Positions 24,436 to 34,657 of a stretch of DNA of 64,000 nt are shown one piece after another. Positions within the stretch are counted from its first letter, which is position 1. Each line of letters starts with the position of its first letter. The DNA is from Streptomyces durmitorensis (GTDB lineage Bacteria > Actinomycetota > Actinomycetes > Streptomycetales > Streptomycetaceae), in the NCBI RefSeq assembly GCF_023498005.1, contig NZ_CP097289.1, positions 6,944,001-7,008,000 of the forward strand, in the 5' to 3' direction. A model generated the notes under the pieces. That model had not been told where the DNA came from and ran no database searches. It saw only the letters and a program-made list of their open reading frames with translations. A program made the position numbers and the translations under genes.

Positions 24436-25394
<959 letters not shown>

Positions 25395-25640: not shown

Positions 25641-25670
25641 GTCCAAGACCTGGGTCGCCTTTGTCCATGG
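25641..25670 (+). promoter_or_regulatory. Putative AraC-type operator upstream of GH101
   Basis: GTCCAA-N13-TTTGTCCATGG places two GTCCA half-sites 22 bp apart, ending 61 bp before the GH101 start. The 12-mer CTTTGTCCATGG (25659-25670) is identical to the one upstream of GH35 (30717-30728, minus strand), in the same orientation relative to its gene. Confidence 0.5.
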
Positions 25671-25731
25671 GCGCAGAAGTCCCTCCCGGCGCAGGGTGAC
25701 CGCACCGAGATCCGTCCCACGGAGGGGTGCC

Positions 25732-28700
25732 ATGCAGCCGTCAGACACGTCCGGCCCGAGCCGCAGAACCGTAGTCGCCACGGGCGCGCTGGCCGGCGTC
25801 ACCGTCGCCGTCGGCCTCGGGGGCGCCGTACCCGCCTCGGCGAGGCCCGCGGCCGCGGGCGAAGCCGTCCTCCGCTCCGCCGACCTCGACGTACGCGTCG
25901 CCACCGACTTCCCCCGCGTCATCTCGTACACCGACCGCGCCACCAAGGCGGTCCTGCACGCACAGTCGGAGCCCGTCACCACGCTCCTGGTGGACGACGT
26001 GACGCACACCCCGAAGGTGACCGTCACCGCCACCGGTGACGACCGGGTCGCGTATCTCCTCGCCCTCGACGGGGGCGCCACCATCCGCGTCGAGATCGCC
26101 CTCAAGGGGCGTCAAGTGCAGTGGCGGGTCACGGAGATCGACGACAGCGATGACCTGCGCGTCGGCACCCTTCGTATCCCCGGGCTCGCCCTTCTCGCGG
26201 TGCGGAGCGATCAGCCCGGCGCCACCCTCCTCGCCGCCAAGATCCAGCTCGACAAGGCCAAGAGCGGGGACACCGAGGTCAGGCTCGCGCCGGACACCGC
26301 CGCCGAGGCGGCCACCGGATGTGCCTACGCCGTCGTCGCGCACGACGCGCTGGGCGGCGCCGTCGAGACCAACACCGTCTACGACAAGCCCACCACCGAG
26401 GCCGGAACCACCTGGGACAACGGCCGGCTCTGGCGGGAGACCGTCAAGAGGAGCGGGTACGTGGAGGCCCGGCTGACCCCTGGCCAGTGGACGCACCGCG
26501 CGGCCACCGCGGCCGTCGGCGACACCGAGCCCCTTCCGTACGCCACCGTCGTCGTCACCGGTGACCGCAACGGCGACGGCAAGGTCGACTGGCAGGACGC
26601 CGCGATCGCGTTCCGCGACATCATGGTGAAGCCGCTGGGCGCGGACGAGCAGCATCTGCGCGTCGTCCCGCACATTCCGTTCAACTTCGCCTCGCAGGCC
26701 ACGAACCCGTTCCTCGCGACCCTCGACAACGTCAAGCGGATCCACCTGGCCACGGACGGCCTGCGGCAGTACACGCTCCTCAAGGGCTATCAGTCGGAGG
26801 GGCATGATTCCGCGCACCCCGACTACGCGGGGAACTACAACACGCGCGCGGGCGGTCTTGACGACCTCAACACCCTGGTCAGGGAAGGCAAGAAGTGGAA
26901 CAGCGACTTCAGTGTGCATGTGAATGCCACCGAGTCCTATCCCGTCGCGAATTCGTTCTCCGAAAAGCTCGTCGACAAGGGAAATGAGCAGTGGGACTGG
27001 CTCGATCAGAGCTATCGCATCGATCAGCGGCGTGACCTGGTGTCCGGTGACATCATCGAGCGGTTCGCCGACCTTCGGGGCGATGCCGACGGTGCGCTCA
27101 ATGCTCTTTACATCGATGTGTTCCGGGAGTCCGGGTGGAACTCCGACCGGCTTCAGCGCGCCCTGCGCGAGCAGGGCTGGATCGTCACCAGCGAGTGGGG
27201 GCACGGCTTCGAGCGCTCGTCCGTCTGGTCGCACTGGGCGACGGAGCCTGATTACGGTCCCGATACGTCGCGCGGCATCAATTCGCGGCTGATCCGCTTC
27301 ATCCGCAACCATCAGAAGGACGTCTTCGCCGACAAATGGCCGACCCTTCTGGGCATCGCCCGCATGGGGAATTTCGAAGGGTGGGTCGGGAAGACCGACT
27401 GGGCCTACTTCTACGATCTGATCTGGACCGACTCGCTGCCCGCCAAGTATCTCCAGGCCCATCCCATCAAGTCGTGGGGCGAGCACGAGATCAGTTTCTT
27501 CGGGGAAGGGCAGACGAAGGTCTCCGACACCGGAGGCACCCGTCGGGTCGTCACCGACGGCCGTGTCGTCTATGACGGGGGGAGCTATCTGCTTCCCTGG
27601 GAACCCCGTAAGGCCACCGATCCCGCGAAGCTCTATCACTACAACCCGAAGGGTGGAAAGGGGAGTTGGCAGCTGCCGCGCGGGTGGTCCGGGCTCGGCA
27701 AGGTCGCGTTGTACCGGCTCACCGATCAGGGGCGCGTCTTCGTCGCCGATGTTCCGGTGCGCGGGGGGAAGGTGACCCTCGACGCCAAGGCCAAGCAGCC
27801 CTACGTCCTGTACCGCTCGCGTGCCGCCGCCGTGCCCGATCCCGGCTGGGGGCAGGGCACGCCTCTGTACGACCCGGGATTCAACTCCGGCTCCCTGCAC
27901 GGCTGGAAGGTCTCCGGACCGGCCTCCGTCGAGCTCAGCAAGCTCGGTGACCACGAACTCGTCATCGCGTCGGGCGGCAAGGCCGCCGTCGGCCAGCGGC
28001 TGCGGCGTCTGAAGGCAGGGGCGTACGTCGCCTCCGTGCAGGTCGAGGTCGGGGAGAAGGCGGGAGACGAGCGGAAGGCCACCTTGGAGGTGCGCACCGC
28101 CGACGGTGTCACCGCCGCCAACTGGACGCGGACGTCCACCGCGGGCAACTACGTGGCGGCCGACCGCAAGCACGGCACCCGCTTCCAGCGGATGTCCGTT
28201 CCCTTCACCGTCCCCGACGGCGGCGGCACGGCCGAGCTGACGCTCCGGGCCGACGCGGGCCACGCGCGCGTGCGCTTCGACAACGTGCGCATCGTCTCCG
28301 CCACGGGCGCGGGCGCCCCCGGTGGTGGCACGCTCGCCGCCGAGGACTTCGAGCACGTGCCGCAGGGATGGGGGCCGTTCGTGAAGGGGGACGCCGGAGA
28401 CGTCACCGACCCGCGTACGCATATCGCGCAGCGGCACGCCCCGTTCACCCAGCGGGGCTGGAACGGCAAGGTCATCGACGACGTCATCGACGGCGCGCAG
28501 TCCCTCAAGTCCCGTGGCGAGAACGCCGGGCTCGTCTACCGCACGGTCCCGCACACCGCCCGTTTCGAGGCAGGCAAGCGCTACCGCGTCTCCTTCCGGT
28601 ACGAGAACGAGAAGGCGGGGCAGTACGCGTGGATCACCGCCGTCGACGAACCCGCGGCTCGTGAGATCGACCGCAAGGAGCTGCCCGTGGCGACCGAGCC

Positions 28701-28824
28701 GACCGCTCTGACGTACGAGTTCACCGCCCCCGCCAAGGGTGAGGCGTGGGTCGGGCTGCGCAAGAGCGGGGACGACGGCACGGCGGAGTTCGTCCTGGAC
28801 GCCTTCGAGGTGCGGGAGGTCTGA
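25732..28824 (+). CDS. Endo-alpha-N-acetylgalactosaminidase-type enzyme (GH101)
   Basis: This 1030-residue enzyme is expected to release the Gal-beta-1,3-GalNAc disaccharide from Ser/Thr of mucin-type glycoproteins. ATG 25732 follows GGAGGGG. A twin-arginine signal (SRRTVVATGALAG) ends near PASA. A beta-sandwich leads to DRNGDGKVDWQDA at residue 278, a calcium-loop-like motif common in GH101. The barrel follows, with likely nucleophile D462 (YIDVF) and acid/base E488 (TSEWGHG). C-terminal galactose-binding-like beta domains run from about 710 to the end. The catalytic assignments are inferred from family patterns. It shares an upstream operator with GH35. Confidence 0.85.
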   Translation: MQPSDTSGPSRRTVVATGALAGVTVAVGLGGAVPASARPAAAGEAVLRSADLDVRVATDFPRVISYTDRATKAVLHAQSEPVTTLLVDDVTHTPKVTVTATGDDRVAYLLALDGGATIRVEIALKGRQVQWRVTEIDDSDDLRVGTLRIPGLALLAVRSDQPGATLLAAKIQLDKAKSGDTEVRLAPDTAAEAATGCAYAVVAHDALGGAVETNTVYDKPTTEAGTTWDNGRLWRETVKRSGYVEARLTPGQWTHRAATAAVGDTEPLPYATVVVTGDRNGDGKVDWQDAAIAFRDIMVKPLGADEQHLRVVPHIPFNFASQATNPFLATLDNVKRIHLATDGLRQYTLLKGYQSEGHDSAHPDYAGNYNTRAGGLDDLNTLVREGKKWNSDFSVHVNATESYPVANSFSEKLVDKGNEQWDWLDQSYRIDQRRDLVSGDIIERFADLRGDADGALNALYIDVFRESGWNSDRLQRALREQGWIVTSEWGHGFERSSVWSHWATEPDYGPDTSRGINSRLIRFIRNHQKDVFADKWPTLLGIARMGNFEGWVGKTDWAYFYDLIWTDSLPAKYLQAHPIKSWGEHEISFFGEGQTKVSDTGGTRRVVTDGRVVYDGGSYLLPWEPRKATDPAKLYHYNPKGGKGSWQLPRGWSGLGKVALYRLTDQGRVFVADVPVRGGKVTLDAKAKQPYVLYRSRAAAVPDPGWGQGTPLYDPGFNSGSLHGWKVSGPASVELSKLGDHELVIASGGKAAVGQRLRRLKAGAYVASVQVEVGEKAGDERKATLEVRTADGVTAANWTRTSTAGNYVAADRKHGTRFQRMSVPFTVPDGGGTAELTLRADAGHARVRFDNVRIVSATGAGAPGGGTLAAEDFEHVPQGWGPFVKGDAGDVTDPRTHIAQRHAPFTQRGWNGKVIDDVIDGAQSLKSRGENAGLVYRTVPHTARFEAGKRYRVSFRYENEKAGQYAWITAVDEPAAREIDRKELPVATEPTALTYEFTAPAKGEAWVGLRKSGDDGTAEFVLDAFEVREV

Positions 28825-28838
28825 GGAGACCTGAGGGA

Positions 28839-28868
28839 GCCGGAGAGGCTGTTCACAGCCTCTCCGGC
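28839..28868. terminator. Bidirectional terminator between GH101 and GH35
   Basis: GCCGGAGAGGCT pairs perfectly with AGCCTCTCCGGC (12 bp) around a six-base loop, between the convergent stop codons. The arm sequence GCCTCTCCGGCGG is repeated at 28884-28896 inside the end of the GH35 gene. Confidence 0.7.
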
Positions 28869-28878
28869 GGAACGGTAC

Positions 28879-30651
28879 TTACTGCCTCTCCGGCGGGACC
28901 GGGGCGAGCGAGACCGTTTCCCCTTCCGTCCCTTCCAGCTCAAGCACCCACACCTCGTTCACGCCCTCCCGCAGCACAGGACCGGGAACGAACAGCGAGG
29001 TCTGCGGACCCGCCGACCAGTAGCGGCCCAGATTGAAGCCGTTCACCCACACGAACCCCCGCGTCCAGGAGGGAAGCTGGAGCGTGGCGTCGCCCGGGCC
29101 GTGCACCTCTGCCGTGCCGCGGTACAGGCCGGGGCGGCCCGACGCTGCTTCTGAGGACGCCGGAACCCCCCGCACGGCCTGCGCCGAGGAGAACGCGTCC
29201 AGCCGCAGCCCCTGGGCCCGCACCCCGTGCAAGTACTGCCGCTCGTGCAGCACCCCGCCGGTGATGCCCTTCGTCTCGCCGGTCCGCGGCCCGTAGTTGA
29301 CCCGCCCCAGGGACTCCACCCACAGCTCCACGCGCGCGTGCCCCGCGACAGGCTCGGGGAGGGACGGCTCCTCCTCGGTGAGGACACCGGCCCGCACCCC
29401 GTCCACGTACACCACGGCCCGGTCCCGCAGCCCCCGCACGCTCAGCGGGTACGGCCGCCGCGGGCCCGGCACCGTCACCGTGTACCGGACCAGGCCGCGG
29501 TCGACGTCGAGCTCTTCGAAGGTGGGCGGTACGGCGTGTTCCGCATCGGGGCCGCCGAGCGACTCCATGACCGCGGACAGCGGCGCCCACCGGGAGAGGT
29601 CCGCCGCCGCGGGCGCCCCGAGCTGCTGCGGTGGCGCGGGCAGCTCCGGCAGCGGTCCTTGCGCGTACGGGGCGAGCACCTCGCGAAAGCGCCAGAACTT
29701 CTCCGTGGGGCGCCCGAACTCGTCGATGGGCGCGTCGTAGTCGTAGGACGTGACGTCCGGCTCAAGGACGCCGTCGTGCAGCGCGCCACCGCCCCGGTTC
29801 GCCCCCGCCCACCCGGCGAAGTTCGTGCCGCCGTGCGCCATGTAGAGGTTGACCGAGGCCCCGCACTCCAGGATCTCGCGCAACGCGTCCGCGGCATCCG
29901 CCGCGTCCCGCACGACATGCTCGGCGCCCCAGTGGTCGAACCAGCCGCACCAGAACTCCATGCACATCAGCGGCCCCTTGGGGCGGTGCCCCCGCAGCGT
30001 CTCGAAGGCCGTGCGGGCCTGCGAGCCGAAGTTGGCCGTCGCCAGGACGCCGGGGACACAGCCGCCGGTGAGCATGTGGTCCTCGGGGCCGTCCGACGTG
30101 AACAGCGGTGCGGTCACGCCCTCGAAGCGCAGCAGGTCGGCGAGGTGGCGGAGGTAGACCTGGTCCGAGCCGTAGCTGCCGTACTCGTTCTCCACCTGCA
30201 CCATGATCACCGGTCCGCCCCGGTCGTGCTGGCGCGGGACGACCTCCGTCATGAGGCGGCCGAACCAGCGGTCCACGTGCCCCAGGTACTCCGTGTCGCG
30301 GGTACGCGCGCGTGCCCCCACCGCGCCCGTCAGCCAGTGCGGAAGGCCGCCGTTCTCCCACTCGGCGCAGATGTACGGTCCCGGCCGGACGATCGCCCAC
30401 AGGCCCGCCTCGTGGGCGGCGTCCAGGAAGCGGCCGAGCGCCTCGACGTCGCTGAACTCCCCGGGGTGCGGCTCGTGCAGGTTCCACGGGACGTACGTCT
30501 CCACGCAGTTGAGCCCCATCGCGCGCAGCATCGCGAGGCGGTGGCCCCACTGCGCCTCGTGCACCCGGAAGTAGTGCAGCGCGCCGGAGAGCAGCCGTAC
30601 GGGCCGCCCGTCCAGTTCGAAATCGTCCTCGCCCACCCTGAAGCCGTTCAT
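28879..30651 (-). CDS. Beta-galactosidase, glycoside hydrolase family 35
   Basis: This 590-residue enzyme removes terminal beta-galactose. ATG 30651 follows AGGGACACG. The TIM barrel contains GPYICAEWENGG (91-102), the acid/base region VENEYG (153-158) and the nucleophile E232 in CMEFWCGWFDHWG. Two beta-sandwich domains follow, ending with the typical GFVWVNGFNLGRYW. There is no signal peptide, so it is cytoplasmic and would need an imported oligosaccharide. It is divergent from the AraC-type regulator, with the shared operator between them. Confidence 0.93.
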   Translation of the reverse strand: MNGFRVGEDDFELDGRPVRLLSGALHYFRVHEAQWGHRLAMLRAMGLNCVETYVPWNLHEPHPGEFSDVEALGRFLDAAHEAGLWAIVRPGPYICAEWENGGLPHWLTGAVGARARTRDTEYLGHVDRWFGRLMTEVVPRQHDRGGPVIMVQVENEYGSYGSDQVYLRHLADLLRFEGVTAPLFTSDGPEDHMLTGGCVPGVLATANFGSQARTAFETLRGHRPKGPLMCMEFWCGWFDHWGAEHVVRDAADAADALREILECGASVNLYMAHGGTNFAGWAGANRGGGALHDGVLEPDVTSYDYDAPIDEFGRPTEKFWRFREVLAPYAQGPLPELPAPPQQLGAPAAADLSRWAPLSAVMESLGGPDAEHAVPPTFEELDVDRGLVRYTVTVPGPRRPYPLSVRGLRDRAVVYVDGVRAGVLTEEEPSLPEPVAGHARVELWVESLGRVNYGPRTGETKGITGGVLHERQYLHGVRAQGLRLDAFSSAQAVRGVPASSEAASGRPGLYRGTAEVHGPGDATLQLPSWTRGFVWVNGFNLGRYWSAGPQTSLFVPGPVLREGVNEVWVLELEGTEGETVSLAPVPPERQ

Positions 30652-30716
30652 CGTGTCCCTGAATCCCTCTCGCTCACCACTGATCAGCCACGATCACCTC
30701 TGGCGGGCAGCAGGGT

Positions 30717-30745
30717 CCATGGACAAAGATCTAGGCGGGTTGGAC
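30717..30745 (-). promoter_or_regulatory. Putative AraC-type operator between GH35 and araC-like gene
   Basis: Read on the minus strand this is GTCCAA-N12-TTTGTCCATGG, with GTCCA half-sites 21 bp apart. It ends 65 bp before the GH35 start and 43 bp before the regulator start. The core GTCCATGGAC is itself palindromic. It is nearly the same as the site upstream of GH101. Confidence 0.5.
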
Positions 30746-30788: not shown

Positions 30789-31697
30789 ATGTACCACACG
30801 TGGATGCGGTATTTCACGCCGAGCCCGGCCCACCACCGCCTCGGCCTGGCCTGCCTCGGGGTCGGCCTGCAGCACGGCGCCCTGCCGACCGTGGGCCCGC
30901 GCACCCTCGACCACCACGTCGCCGTGGTCGTGAGCGCGGGCGGCGGCTGGTTCCAGGGGCCCGACGGCAGACGTACGACGGTCACGGCGCCCGCCCTGAT
31001 CTGGCTCACCCCCGGAGTGCGCCACCACTACGGGCCCGACCCGGAGAGCGGCTGGGACGAGTGCTTCGTCGACTTCACGGGGCCCGCCACGGCGACGTAC
31101 ACCGAGCTCGGCTACATCGAACCCACCCGGCCGGTGGTGCCGCTCTCCGACGCGACCGGCGCGCGGGCCGCCGTCGGGCGCATCGCGCGCGCGGCGCGGC
31201 GCGGCAACCCGCTCCTGGAGGTCGAGACGGGCGCGGCCGTCCACGAACTCCTCGTCGCGCTCCGCCGGGCCCGCGCCGACATCGCCCCCGACGGCGACCC
31301 GGTGCTCCAGGCGCTCGCCCGCGACGCCTTCCAGCCACTTTCCGTCGCCGAGCACGCGGCACGGCACGGCATGACGCCCGCGGAGCTGCGCACGGCGGTG
31401 CGCCGGGGCGCGGGCTGCAGTCCCAAGGACTACCTCCTCGGCATCCGTCTCGGGCGCGCCAAGGAGCTGCTCGCCGCCACGGAGCTGCCGGTGGCGGCCG
31501 TCGCGCGCCGGGTCGGCTACGACGACCCGGCGTACTTCTCGCGGCTCTTCACGCGCCGCGTCGGCATGGCGCCCGTCCGCTTCCGTGAGCAGCAGGGACG
31601 CGCGGTACCCGGCGGCTGGTCGCAGCAGATTCCCGACCCCGACCACCCGCCGATTTTGCGCTCTTCCGCCGTCGGTGGCGAAGGACCGGCAACGTAG
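30789..31697 (+). CDS. AraC-family transcriptional regulator
   Basis: This 302-residue regulator starts at ATG 30789 after GGAAGGGGC. The N-terminal half is a cupin-like sugar-sensing domain (LDHHVAVVVSAGGGWF, LIWLTPGVRHHYG). Residues about 190-285 hold the double helix-turn-helix, with PLSVAEHAARHGMTPAEL and VAAVARRVGYDDPAYFSRLF as the two recognition units. Divergence from GH35 and the intergenic repeat make it the likely activator of GH35, and of GH101 5 kb away through the second copy of the site. Confidence 0.9.
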   Translation: MYHTWMRYFTPSPAHHRLGLACLGVGLQHGALPTVGPRTLDHHVAVVVSAGGGWFQGPDGRRTTVTAPALIWLTPGVRHHYGPDPESGWDECFVDFTGPATATYTELGYIEPTRPVVPLSDATGARAAVGRIARAARRGNPLLEVETGAAVHELLVALRRARADIAPDGDPVLQALARDAFQPLSVAEHAARHGMTPAELRTAVRRGAGCSPKDYLLGIRLGRAKELLAATELPVAAVARRVGYDDPAYFSRLFTRRVGMAPVRFREQQGRAVPGGWSQQIPDPDHPPILRSSAVGGEGPAT

Positions 31698-32131: not shown

Positions 32132-34657
32132 ATGTCCGTATTGACGCGCGACGAAGCGCAGACCCGAGCCCGGCTCCTCGACGTCCACCGGTACAGCGTG
32201 GAGCTGGACCTGACCACGGGAGCCGAGACCTTCGACTCCCGTACGGTCATCCGCTTCACGGTGCTCGGGGAGCCCGCGGACGGCTCCGCACCCGCGGTCG
32301 ACACCTTCGTCGAGGTCAAGCCCGCCGAGCTGCGCTCCGTCACCCTCGACGGGCAGCCGGTCGACCCCGCGGGCCTCGTCGAGAACCGCCTCGCGCTCAC
32401 CGGACTCACCGCGGGCGAGCACGAACTGCGCGTCGACGCGGGCATGCGCTACTCGCACACCGGCGAGGGCATGCACCGCTTCACCGACCCCACGGACGGC
32501 GAGACGTATGCGTACACGCAGCTGTTCATGGAGGACGTGCAGCGCGTCTTCGCGGCCTTCGACCAGCCCGACCTGAAGTCCGTCTTCGAGCTGACCGTCA
32601 CCGCCCCGGAGGGCTGGACCGTCCTGGCGAACGGCGTGACCGAGCACGTGGGCGGCGGCACCTGGCGGGCCGCGGCCACCCCGCTGATCTCCACGTACCT
32701 CGTCGCCGTCGCCGCGGGCCCCTGGCACTCGGTCCGCACCGAACACCGCGGACTGCCCTTCGGCATCCACTGCCGCCGCTCGCTGGCGCCCTTCCTGGAC
32801 GCCGACGCCGACGAGATCCTCGACGTCACGCGCGCGTGCTACGACCGGTATCACGAGAAGTTCGACGAGCCCTACCCCTTCGACTCGTACGACCAGGCGT
32901 TCGTCCCCGAGTTCAACGCCGGAGCGATGGAGAACCCCGGACTCGTCACCTTCCGCGACGAGTTCATCTACCGCTCCGCCGTCACCGAGACCGAGCGGCA
33001 GACCCGCGCCATGGTCATCTCGCACGAGATGGCCCACATGTGGTTCGGCGACCTCGTCACGCTCAGGTGGTGGGACGACATCTGGCTGAACGAATCCTTC
33101 GCCGAGTACATGGGCTTCCAGACCACGGCCGAAGCCACCCGCTTCCGGGACACCTGGACCGACTTCGGCGTCGCCCGCAAGGCCTGGGGGTACGACGCCG
33201 ACCAGCGCCCCTCCACCCACCCCGTCGCGCCCGACCCGGACGCCGTGCCCGACACCGCGTCCGCGATGCTCAACTTCGACGGCATCTCGTACGCCAAGGG
33301 CGCATCCGCCCTGCGTCAACTGGTCGCCTGGCTCGGCGAGAAGGACTTCCTCGCCGGCATCAACACCCACATCGCCCGGCACAAGTTCGCCAACGCCACC
33401 CTCGCCGACTTCATCGATTCGCTCGCGCACAACACCGACCGCGACGTGCACGGATGGGCCGAGGCCTGGCTGCGCACGACCGGCGTCGACACGCTCACCT
33501 CGACGGTCACGCACGACGCCCGTGAGTGGACCCTCGCCGTCGACCGCGAGGGCAGCCGCCCGCACCGCGTCGCCGTCGGGGTGTTCGACCGCGACCTCAC
33601 CGACCCCCAGGGCCTGGTCCTGCGCGAGCGGTACGAGACGGACGTCCCGCACTCCGGCCCCTCCGCGCCGAGCGACGGCGGGCGGCCCGCTCTGATCGTG
33701 CCGAACGACCAGGACCTCACGTACGCCAAGATCCGCCTCGACGACGTCTCCATGGAGACGGCCCTGCGCAGCCTCTCCCGCGTCCCCGACGCCCTCACCC
33801 GCGCCGTCCTGTGGAACAGCCTGCGCGACATGGTCCGCGACGGCGAACTCGACGGCACCGCCTATCTGGAGACGGCCCGCGCGCACCTCCCCGACGAGAC
33901 CGACCTCGCCCTCGTCCAGGGCGTCCTCGCCTTCGCCACCACCCACGTCGCGGGCCGCTTCCTGCCTCCGACCCGGCGGACCTCCGCCCTCACCACCCTC
34001 ACCGAACTGTGCCGCGACCTGATCCGGCGCACGGAGGACGGCTCGCACCCGGGCCTGCGGCTCACCGCCGTGCGCGGCTTCATCGACGTGGCGACGCGCC
34101 CCGACCCGCTCCAGGAATGGCTCTCCGAGGGCACTGTCCCCGGCGGCCCCGAACTCGACCCCGAGCTGCGCTGGCGCGTCCTGACCCGCCTCGCCGTCCT
34201 CGGCGCCGCCGACGAGTCCGCGATCGCCGCCGAGCTGGAGCGCGACCCCAGCGCCACCGGGCAGGAAGGCGCGGCCCGCTGCCGTGCCGCGCTGCCGGAC
34301 CCGGCGGCCAAGCGCCGCGCCTGGGAGGCGATGTTCGCCTCGGACGACCTCTCCAACTACCTCCTCACTGCCACCGCCCAGGGCTTCTGGCAGCCCGAAC
34401 ACGCCGATCTCGTACGGGAGTACATCCCCCGGTACTACGAGGACGCGGTCGCCGTCGCGGCCCGGCGCGGCCCCGCCATCGCCGACGTCGCCGGACGGTG
34501 GGCCTTCCCCGCCGCATCGGTGGACGCCGAGACGCTCCGCCTCGGCCGGGAGTGCCTCCGCGACGCCGACCCCATTCCCGCCCTGCGCCGCAAGCTGGCC
34601 GACCAACTGGACGACCTGGAGCGGGCGTTGAAGGTGCGGGAGGCGGCCAAGGCCTAG
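32132..34657 (+). CDS. pepN: Aminopeptidase N (M1 family)
   Basis: This 841-residue cytoplasmic zinc aminopeptidase starts at ATG 32132. The N-terminal beta domain precedes the substrate motif GAMEN at 264-268 and the zinc site HEMAH at 298-302, with E321 (NESFAEY) as third ligand. The C-terminal half is the ERAP1-like helical bowl. Size and motifs match the Streptomyces lividans PepN type. It trims N-terminal residues in peptide turnover. An 18-bp hairpin follows the stop. Confidence 0.97.
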   Translation: MSVLTRDEAQTRARLLDVHRYSVELDLTTGAETFDSRTVIRFTVLGEPADGSAPAVDTFVEVKPAELRSVTLDGQPVDPAGLVENRLALTGLTAGEHELRVDAGMRYSHTGEGMHRFTDPTDGETYAYTQLFMEDVQRVFAAFDQPDLKSVFELTVTAPEGWTVLANGVTEHVGGGTWRAAATPLISTYLVAVAAGPWHSVRTEHRGLPFGIHCRRSLAPFLDADADEILDVTRACYDRYHEKFDEPYPFDSYDQAFVPEFNAGAMENPGLVTFRDEFIYRSAVTETERQTRAMVISHEMAHMWFGDLVTLRWWDDIWLNESFAEYMGFQTTAEATRFRDTWTDFGVARKAWGYDADQRPSTHPVAPDPDAVPDTASAMLNFDGISYAKGASALRQLVAWLGEKDFLAGINTHIARHKFANATLADFIDSLAHNTDRDVHGWAEAWLRTTGVDTLTSTVTHDAREWTLAVDREGSRPHRVAVGVFDRDLTDPQGLVLRERYETDVPHSGPSAPSDGGRPALIVPNDQDLTYAKIRLDDVSMETALRSLSRVPDALTRAVLWNSLRDMVRDGELDGTAYLETARAHLPDETDLALVQGVLAFATTHVAGRFLPPTRRTSALTTLTELCRDLIRRTEDGSHPGLRLTAVRGFIDVATRPDPLQEWLSEGTVPGGPELDPELRWRVLTRLAVLGAADESAIAAELERDPSATGQEGAARCRAALPDPAAKRRAWEAMFASDDLSNYLLTATAQGFWQPEHADLVREYIPRYYEDAVAVAARRGPAIADVAGRWAFPAASVDAETLRLGRECLRDADPIPALRRKLADQLDDLERALKVREAAKA

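Follow-up and report, generated by a model that had tools for sequence, protein, structure and literature searches.

Local regulons governed by members of the AraC family are well known. In AraC of Escherichia coli, the araI1-I2 sites of araBAD consist of two direct half-sites, the proximal one lying in the -35 region. BgaR of Clostridium perfringens is a lactose sensor with a role beside a beta-galactosidase gene, and AdpA of Streptomyces regulates globally through a short, degenerate site. With regard to mucin-type glycans, a mucin-induced endo-alpha-N-acetylgalactosaminidase of Streptomyces was reportedly purified around 1990, and the lacto-/galacto-N-biose route of Bifidobacterium is a phosphorylase route. 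The use of these disaccharides in Bifidobacterium is regulated by NagR, a member of the ROK family, according to PMC4746261. Here, we describe a regulon of Streptomyces durmitorensis in which two matching operators precede genes for a glycoside hydrolase of family 101 (GH101) and one of family 35 (GH35), the latter divergent from an AraC-type regulator gene. The genes lie in a 64,000-nt window, the whole stretch of DNA that was analysed (NZ_CP097289.1, positions 6,944,001-7,008,000; assembly GCF_023498005.1).

The AraC-type regulator (30789-31697) very probably binds both sites and activates GH101 and GH35 in a class II manner, as judged from the sequence, with autorepression and an inducer of the Gal-beta1,3-GalNAc type (GalNAc, N-acetylgalactosamine) as probable further features. 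The regulon is real, specific and conserved, new in content and ordinary in kind. The initial annotation of the window did not recognise it as described, and no description was found in the literature searched, which comprised open-licence papers, either.

Two matching operators in the window and genome

The GH101 operator, GTCCAA-N13-TTTGTCCATGG (25641..25670, + strand), holds a direct repeat of GTCCAW with a spacing of 22 bp and ends 61 nt before the GH101 ATG at 25732. The GH35 operator, GTCCAA-N12-TTTGTCCATGG (30717..30745, - strand), holds the same direct repeat 21 bp apart, ends 65 nt before the GH35 ATG at 30651, and is intergenic, with GH35 on one side and the divergent araC-type gene on the other. 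The sequences, coordinates, strands, spacers and common 12-mer given in the initial annotation proved correct to the base, as did its distances to the two genes (61 and 65 bp), its half-site spacing of 21-22 bp, and its placement of the regulator gene beside the second copy. It had also held that chance frequency of the motif, or its lack of conservation before GH101 and GH35 orthologues, would undo the proposal. The motif is kept upstream of both sets of orthologues, as detailed below, and it is more frequent than chance: the whole 9.86-Mb genome contains these two exact copies and no third, versus 0 matches for the reversed control pattern, and 100 dinucleotide shuffles of the window never matched the pattern.

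When up to three mismatches were allowed, the N12 form gave 10 further matches in the genome versus 3 for the control, and the N13 form gave none. All 10 fall inside open frames exceeding 150 codons; nine of these frames are coding-like by third-position GC (that of L119 is not), and in two of the 10 an xANNNT hexamer happens to stand at the right distance. A large regulon in this genome is therefore unsupported, these being only weak matches and nine of the 10 lying in coding-like frames; in S. durmitorensis, the regulon is two sites and three genes.

Conservation at orthologous promoters

Protein similarity alone was used to retrieve GH101 loci from named genomes (the best 80 of 143), and three with too little upstream sequence were left out, so that 77 were testable. 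The best site upstream of GH101 has no mismatch in 49 of these loci, one in 24 and two in four, versus 4 to 8 mismatches for the best match when the same stretches are read on the opposite strand; choosing the best match per region inflates the site counts somewhat, and this control shows the effect to be small. Within the GH101 regions, GTCCAA and GTCCAT are 99-100% conserved, and no base exceeds 55% at positions -15 to -6. At GH35, the site is exact in 63 of 66 regions, with one mismatch in two and two mismatches in one. L055, which nearly duplicates L004, is omitted from this set, part of which was fetched via the motif itself; the 43 loci fetched only through GH101 comprise 40 exact sites, two with one mismatch and one with two. 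Viewed from araC, an exact site lies within 500 bp in 61 of the 66 divergent loci and a site with one or two mismatches in three, and in L010 and L036, where araC is 1.1 kb distant, the exact site is still beside GH35. Each promoter also has its own spacer type across species, mostly N13 at GH101 (64/77) and mostly N12 at GH35 (62/66).

In a distant clade (AraC 65-69% and GH101 43-47% identical), GTCCAG-N13-TTTGTCCATGG precedes GH101 in nine of the 11 loci read; in each of these nine an AraC is linked, and the other two lack both AraC and site. Six genomes that lack AraC and have a distant GH101 provided seven loci, one of them a fragment, and the best site anywhere in these has at least 4 mismatches. 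Because the distant-clade sites follow AraC and the AraC-less loci are unsited, regulator, site and enzyme have remained associated despite considerable divergence, and a single base of the site differs. When the fetched loci were searched together with the window (1.70 Mb of loci plus the window), two- or three-mismatch sites fell only in known promoters, in their decayed remnants, in loci fetched for such sites and once elsewhere.

Co-occurrence of regulator and site

Among 392 Streptomyces genomes, 172 contain the exact pattern and 0 the reversed control. With AraC classed as a close orthologue at an expect value (E) of 1e-130 or better, as absent at E above 1e-50, and as intermediate otherwise, the exact site was found in 167 of the 209 genomes with a close orthologue, one of the 163 without and four of the 20 intermediate ones (Fisher p 9e-64, ignoring kinship). 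A slightly relaxed pattern matched 12 of the 42 AraC-positive genomes lacking an exact site versus 0 of 38 AraC-negative ones (G114, discussed below, is not among the 38), and the araC upstream region, read in ten of the other 30, held a one-mismatch site every time (10/10); relaxed pattern or reading covers 22 of the 42. A scan of the order found matches in 126 of 293 genomes and, outside the genus, in one of 20, where the site lies between divergent genes for an AraC and a GH35 that are 61% and 58% identical, respectively. GH101 itself is present in 155 of the 392 genomes, eight of the 155 being without a close AraC.

Promoter architecture

A -10-like hexamer, xANNNT, lies 20 or 21 nt after the terminal ...CCATGG of the operator in 77 of 77 GH101 and 59 of 66 GH35 regions, and other offsets from 10 to 31 have at most 6 such hexamers each. 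In the window, the predicted -10 elements are CAGGGT for GH101 (25692..25697, + strand) and GATCGT for GH35 (30690..30695, - strand), each 21 nt after its operator, with predicted transcription starts near 25704 and 30683, respectively. When the A of the hexamer is taken as -11, TTTGTCCATGG falls at about -44 to -34 and GTCCAA at about -63 to -57. The -10 stands at a fixed 20-21 nt, and the 3' half-site is therefore near -44 to -34, an arrangement like that of class II AraC-type activators; the features that define this class, a proximal half-site in the -35 region and a fixed distance to the -10, are thus both present relative to predicted starts. No recognisable -35 of their own was seen in the GH101 and GH35 promoters, and the element is most readily understood as an activator site coupled to the -10 at a fixed distance. 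A conserved GCCAGAGG block between the operator and the GH35 -10 was considered as a -35 for GH35. This reading was rejected for two reasons: only a few bases separate the block from the GH35 -10, and, as CTGGCG on the araC side, it persists in part of the GH35-less loci.

Facing the regulator, CTGGCG-N18/19-xAAGAT is the probable araC promoter, overlapping the GH35 site. It comprises a -35 predicted from conservation across loci (CTGGCG, 30700..30705, + strand) and a predicted -10 inside the GH35 operator (AAAGAT, 30725..30730, + strand), with a predicted transcription start near 30737. The element occurs without mismatch in 53 of 66 loci with GH35 and, at up to one mismatch overall, in 15 of the 27 loci without GH35 in the stretch, being absent from the other 12; its consensus was read from the very sequences scored, and shuffled sequences never came below two mismatches. 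GATC closes the spacer at GH35 (98-100% per base) but not at GH101, a restriction that the location of the araC -10 inside the GH35 operator would explain. This location also predicts that bound regulator blocks its own promoter. In the loci without nearby GH35, the operator beside araC has decayed, the araC promoter element persisting in the 15 of 27. In a number of GH35-less lineages (L060, L069, L072, L073, L076, L078, L096, L097, L103 and others), araC lies close behind GH101 on the same strand.

Proposed mechanism and alternative explanations

From the computed sites, their conservation, the promoter geometry, the co-occurrence of regulator and site, and the gene identities, we infer binding, activation, autorepression, ligand and import as follows. 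One subunit of the regulator would occupy each direct GTCCAW half-site at both operators, placing the promoter-proximal subunit at about -44 to -34 beside RNA polymerase at promoters without a good -35. The regulator would probably repress its own promoter too, the -10 of which is embedded in the GH35 operator. Gal-beta1,3-GalNAc, or else a related beta-galactoside, is the probable inducer. Exported GH101 would free Gal-beta1,3-GalNAc from mucin-type O-glycoproteins, some transporter, none of them sited in this genome, would import the disaccharide, and GH35 would cleave it inside the cell, its beta1,3 specificity being presumed.

Several observations weigh against this scheme. Seven of the 66 GH35 promoters are without a -10 at the expected offsets, and the co-occurrence test disregards kinship. 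The sole AraC-negative genome with exact sites is G276, an assembly of 1,770 contigs, and another AraC-negative genome, G114, has a GH101 with a one-mismatch site and no AraC found; the contig stops 43 nt after this GH101, and the AraC of G114 may lie in the assembly gap. Decay of the site next to araC in loci that lack a nearby GH35 weakens the case for strongly kept autorepression. The fold match of the regulator to BgaR has 14% identity in a model with a mean predicted local distance difference test (pLDDT) of 69, and a match at this identity does not fix a ligand. Finally, the candidate regulon of the initial annotation, which conservation supports, reaches in this genome only the two sites and three genes, with no sited transporter at up to three mismatches.

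The same regulator and sites might instead repress GH101 and GH35 until the ligand arrives, given that the 3' half-site overlaps the -35 region, where bound protein could block RNA polymerase. However, neither promoter shows a recognisable -35, the distance to the -10 is constant at 20-21 nt, and most members of the AraC family that carry a sugar-sensing cupin are activators, all of which makes repression improbable. A little less probable still is that another protein binds the sites, the araC-type gene being a mere neighbour. The link between regulator and site consists of co-occurrence and position, as this explanation would allow, yet of the 163 genomes that lack the regulator only one has exact sites, linkage of the regulator to GH101 persists in the absence of GH35, and the site of the diverged clade is found only at loci keeping the regulator. 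Chance resemblance, or recent duplication of one promoter, would fit the presence of only two copies in this genome. It would not fit half-sites that are conserved while spacer and flanks vary, a pattern found in 172 of 392 genomes versus 0 for the control, or promoters that each keep their own spacer type across species, and we give it next to no weight; a chance origin of the sites is rejected by the shuffles, the genome-wide control, the 392-genome count and the 77 of 77 GH101 orthologues. Activation by the AraC-type regulator is thus the explanation we prefer.

Further targets in other Streptomyces

Further targets were chosen, among the matches listed, as sites not beside a listed AraC. 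Among these, the operator precedes a major facilitator superfamily (MFS) transporter of a Cmx/AraJ-like group, far from the AraC locus, in other Streptomyces (L003, L015, L017, L019, L020, L028, L123-L126, L129-L136 and L242), a secreted-looking right-handed beta-helix protein in two genomes (G081, L012/L141; G289, L137) and, in one genome (G208, L138), a gene that by eye is sulfatase-like and is followed by a GH3-like gene. The -10 hexamer is present at the same offsets in 21 of the 21 read (18 MFS, two beta-helix and one sulfatase). In many MFS genes, only a few bases separate the ATG from the upstream hexamer, which points to leaderless transcripts. The S. durmitorensis genome has no close orthologue of the MFS target, its nearest relative being 53% identical versus 80-91% among the sited ones.

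A second repeat at an unlinked GH101 lineage

An unlinked GH101 lineage (46-52% identical) is preceded by another repeat, TTGGACT-N15-TTGGACT, with up to one mismatch in 27 of the 28 loci read, one of them with N14 (L160-L166 and L174-L193). A TTGAC -35 begins 26 nt after this second repeat in 26 of the 27 and 25 nt after it in one. The exact repeat occurs in 53 of the 392 genomes, in which AraC is close in 49, intermediate in three and absent in one (G276); its co-occurrence with AraC has a P of 1.2e-12, ignoring kinship. On the opposite strand, its half-site reads AGTCCAA, identical to the 5' half at GH101. Three of the 54 listed places, in G280, G284 and G320, are not before GH101. The G320 locus (L226) has the repeat, the -35 and the neighbours kept by its relatives, with no GH101 found there; it has apparently lost its GH101, the operator being left behind.

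Tentatively, one AraC-type sensor of the mucin core-1 disaccharide might govern a trans-acting regulon through an AGTCCAA-like half-site in two geometries, namely class II, forward and in the -35 region (GH101, GH35, MFS, sulfatase and beta-helix), and class I, reversed and 26 nt before the strong TTGAC -35 of the unlinked second GH101 lineage, although we consider this rather doubtful. If true, regulation would have been kept while the enzyme gene and the site orientation were replaced. The second repeat as part of the S. durmitorensis regulon is unsupported, as the genome has no exact copy and 55 matches with up to three mismatches versus 73 for the control. Outside the window, at G000:C1:2546124-2546153 (L228), S. 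durmitorensis has a one-mismatch second repeat, which may be chance, before a secreted protein that by eye is GH92-like; a divergent sugar-binding-protein-like gene lies beside it.

Genes of the locus

The GH101 gene (25732..28824, + strand) encodes an endo-alpha-N-acetylgalactosaminidase of 1030 amino acids (aa). Its membership in the family is supported by the catalytic domain PF12905 together with accessory domains (PF18080, PF17974, PF17451 and PF21466), and its relatives include the EngBF and SpGH101 structures. By eye, its N-terminus looks like a twin-arginine export signal. The GH35 gene (28879..30651, - strand) encodes a beta-galactosidase of 590 aa (PF01301, 363 bits), the nearest solved structures of which are GH35 beta-galactosidases. 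No export signal was seen in this protein by eye, so it is probably cytoplasmic.

The regulator gene (30789..31697, + strand) encodes 302 aa with a cupin sensor domain and two C-terminal helix-turn-helix (HTH) motifs, as judged from Pfam matches, a structure model and fold comparison. Its DNA-binding part belongs to the AraC/XylS family, with PF12833 (HTH_18) and PF00165 above cut-off, the helices of both HTH motifs in the model, and fold matches to YesN, AdpA and MarA. Likewise, the N-terminal cupin places it in the sugar-type subgroup, through PF02311 (AraC_binding) and fold matches to BgaR, RhaR and AraC; the domain has the BgaR-type sensor fold and most resembles BgaR (PDB 6nwh and others). 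The locus is neighboured by genes for a trypsin-like protease (24513-25394) and an M1 aminopeptidase (32132-34657), and the operator is upstream of neither.

Taken together, two annotated enzymes and an anonymous AraC gene become a defined, testable regulon. An inducer and a promoter mechanism are predicted from it, as is co-regulation of a transporter in other species, and the rarity of the site permits genome-wide target finding. A close copy of the regulator is present in more than half of the sampled Streptomyces (209/392), so many of these mostly soil-dwelling bacteria would keep a dedicated switch for the breakdown of mucin-type O-glycans. Should Gal-beta1,3-GalNAc prove to be the ligand, the protein could be used as a sensor of the T-antigen disaccharide.

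Comparison with known systems

Unlike AdpA (PDB 3w6v), the S. durmitorensis regulator possesses a cupin sensor domain, and its site is long and rare. It differs from BgaR in its 14% identity and its phylum, and the GH101 partner and the operator are not known for BgaR. Relative to the NagR system of Bifidobacterium, the regulator is of another family and GH35 takes the place of the phosphorylase route. The two systems are alike in regulating the use of the same disaccharide class (PMC4746261 for NagR). The regulator falls outside the E. coli AraC equivalog NF007860 of NCBIfam (61.4 bits versus a cut-off of 208), and it differs from E. coli AraC in its half-site and its genes, with no evidence here of a distant looping site. 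The system shares with AraC and araBAD a pair of direct half-sites about 21 bp apart, of which the proximal lies in the -35 region. The regulator gene is likewise divergent, with a predicted promoter overlapping the sites, and the protein likewise combines a cupin with two HTH motifs.

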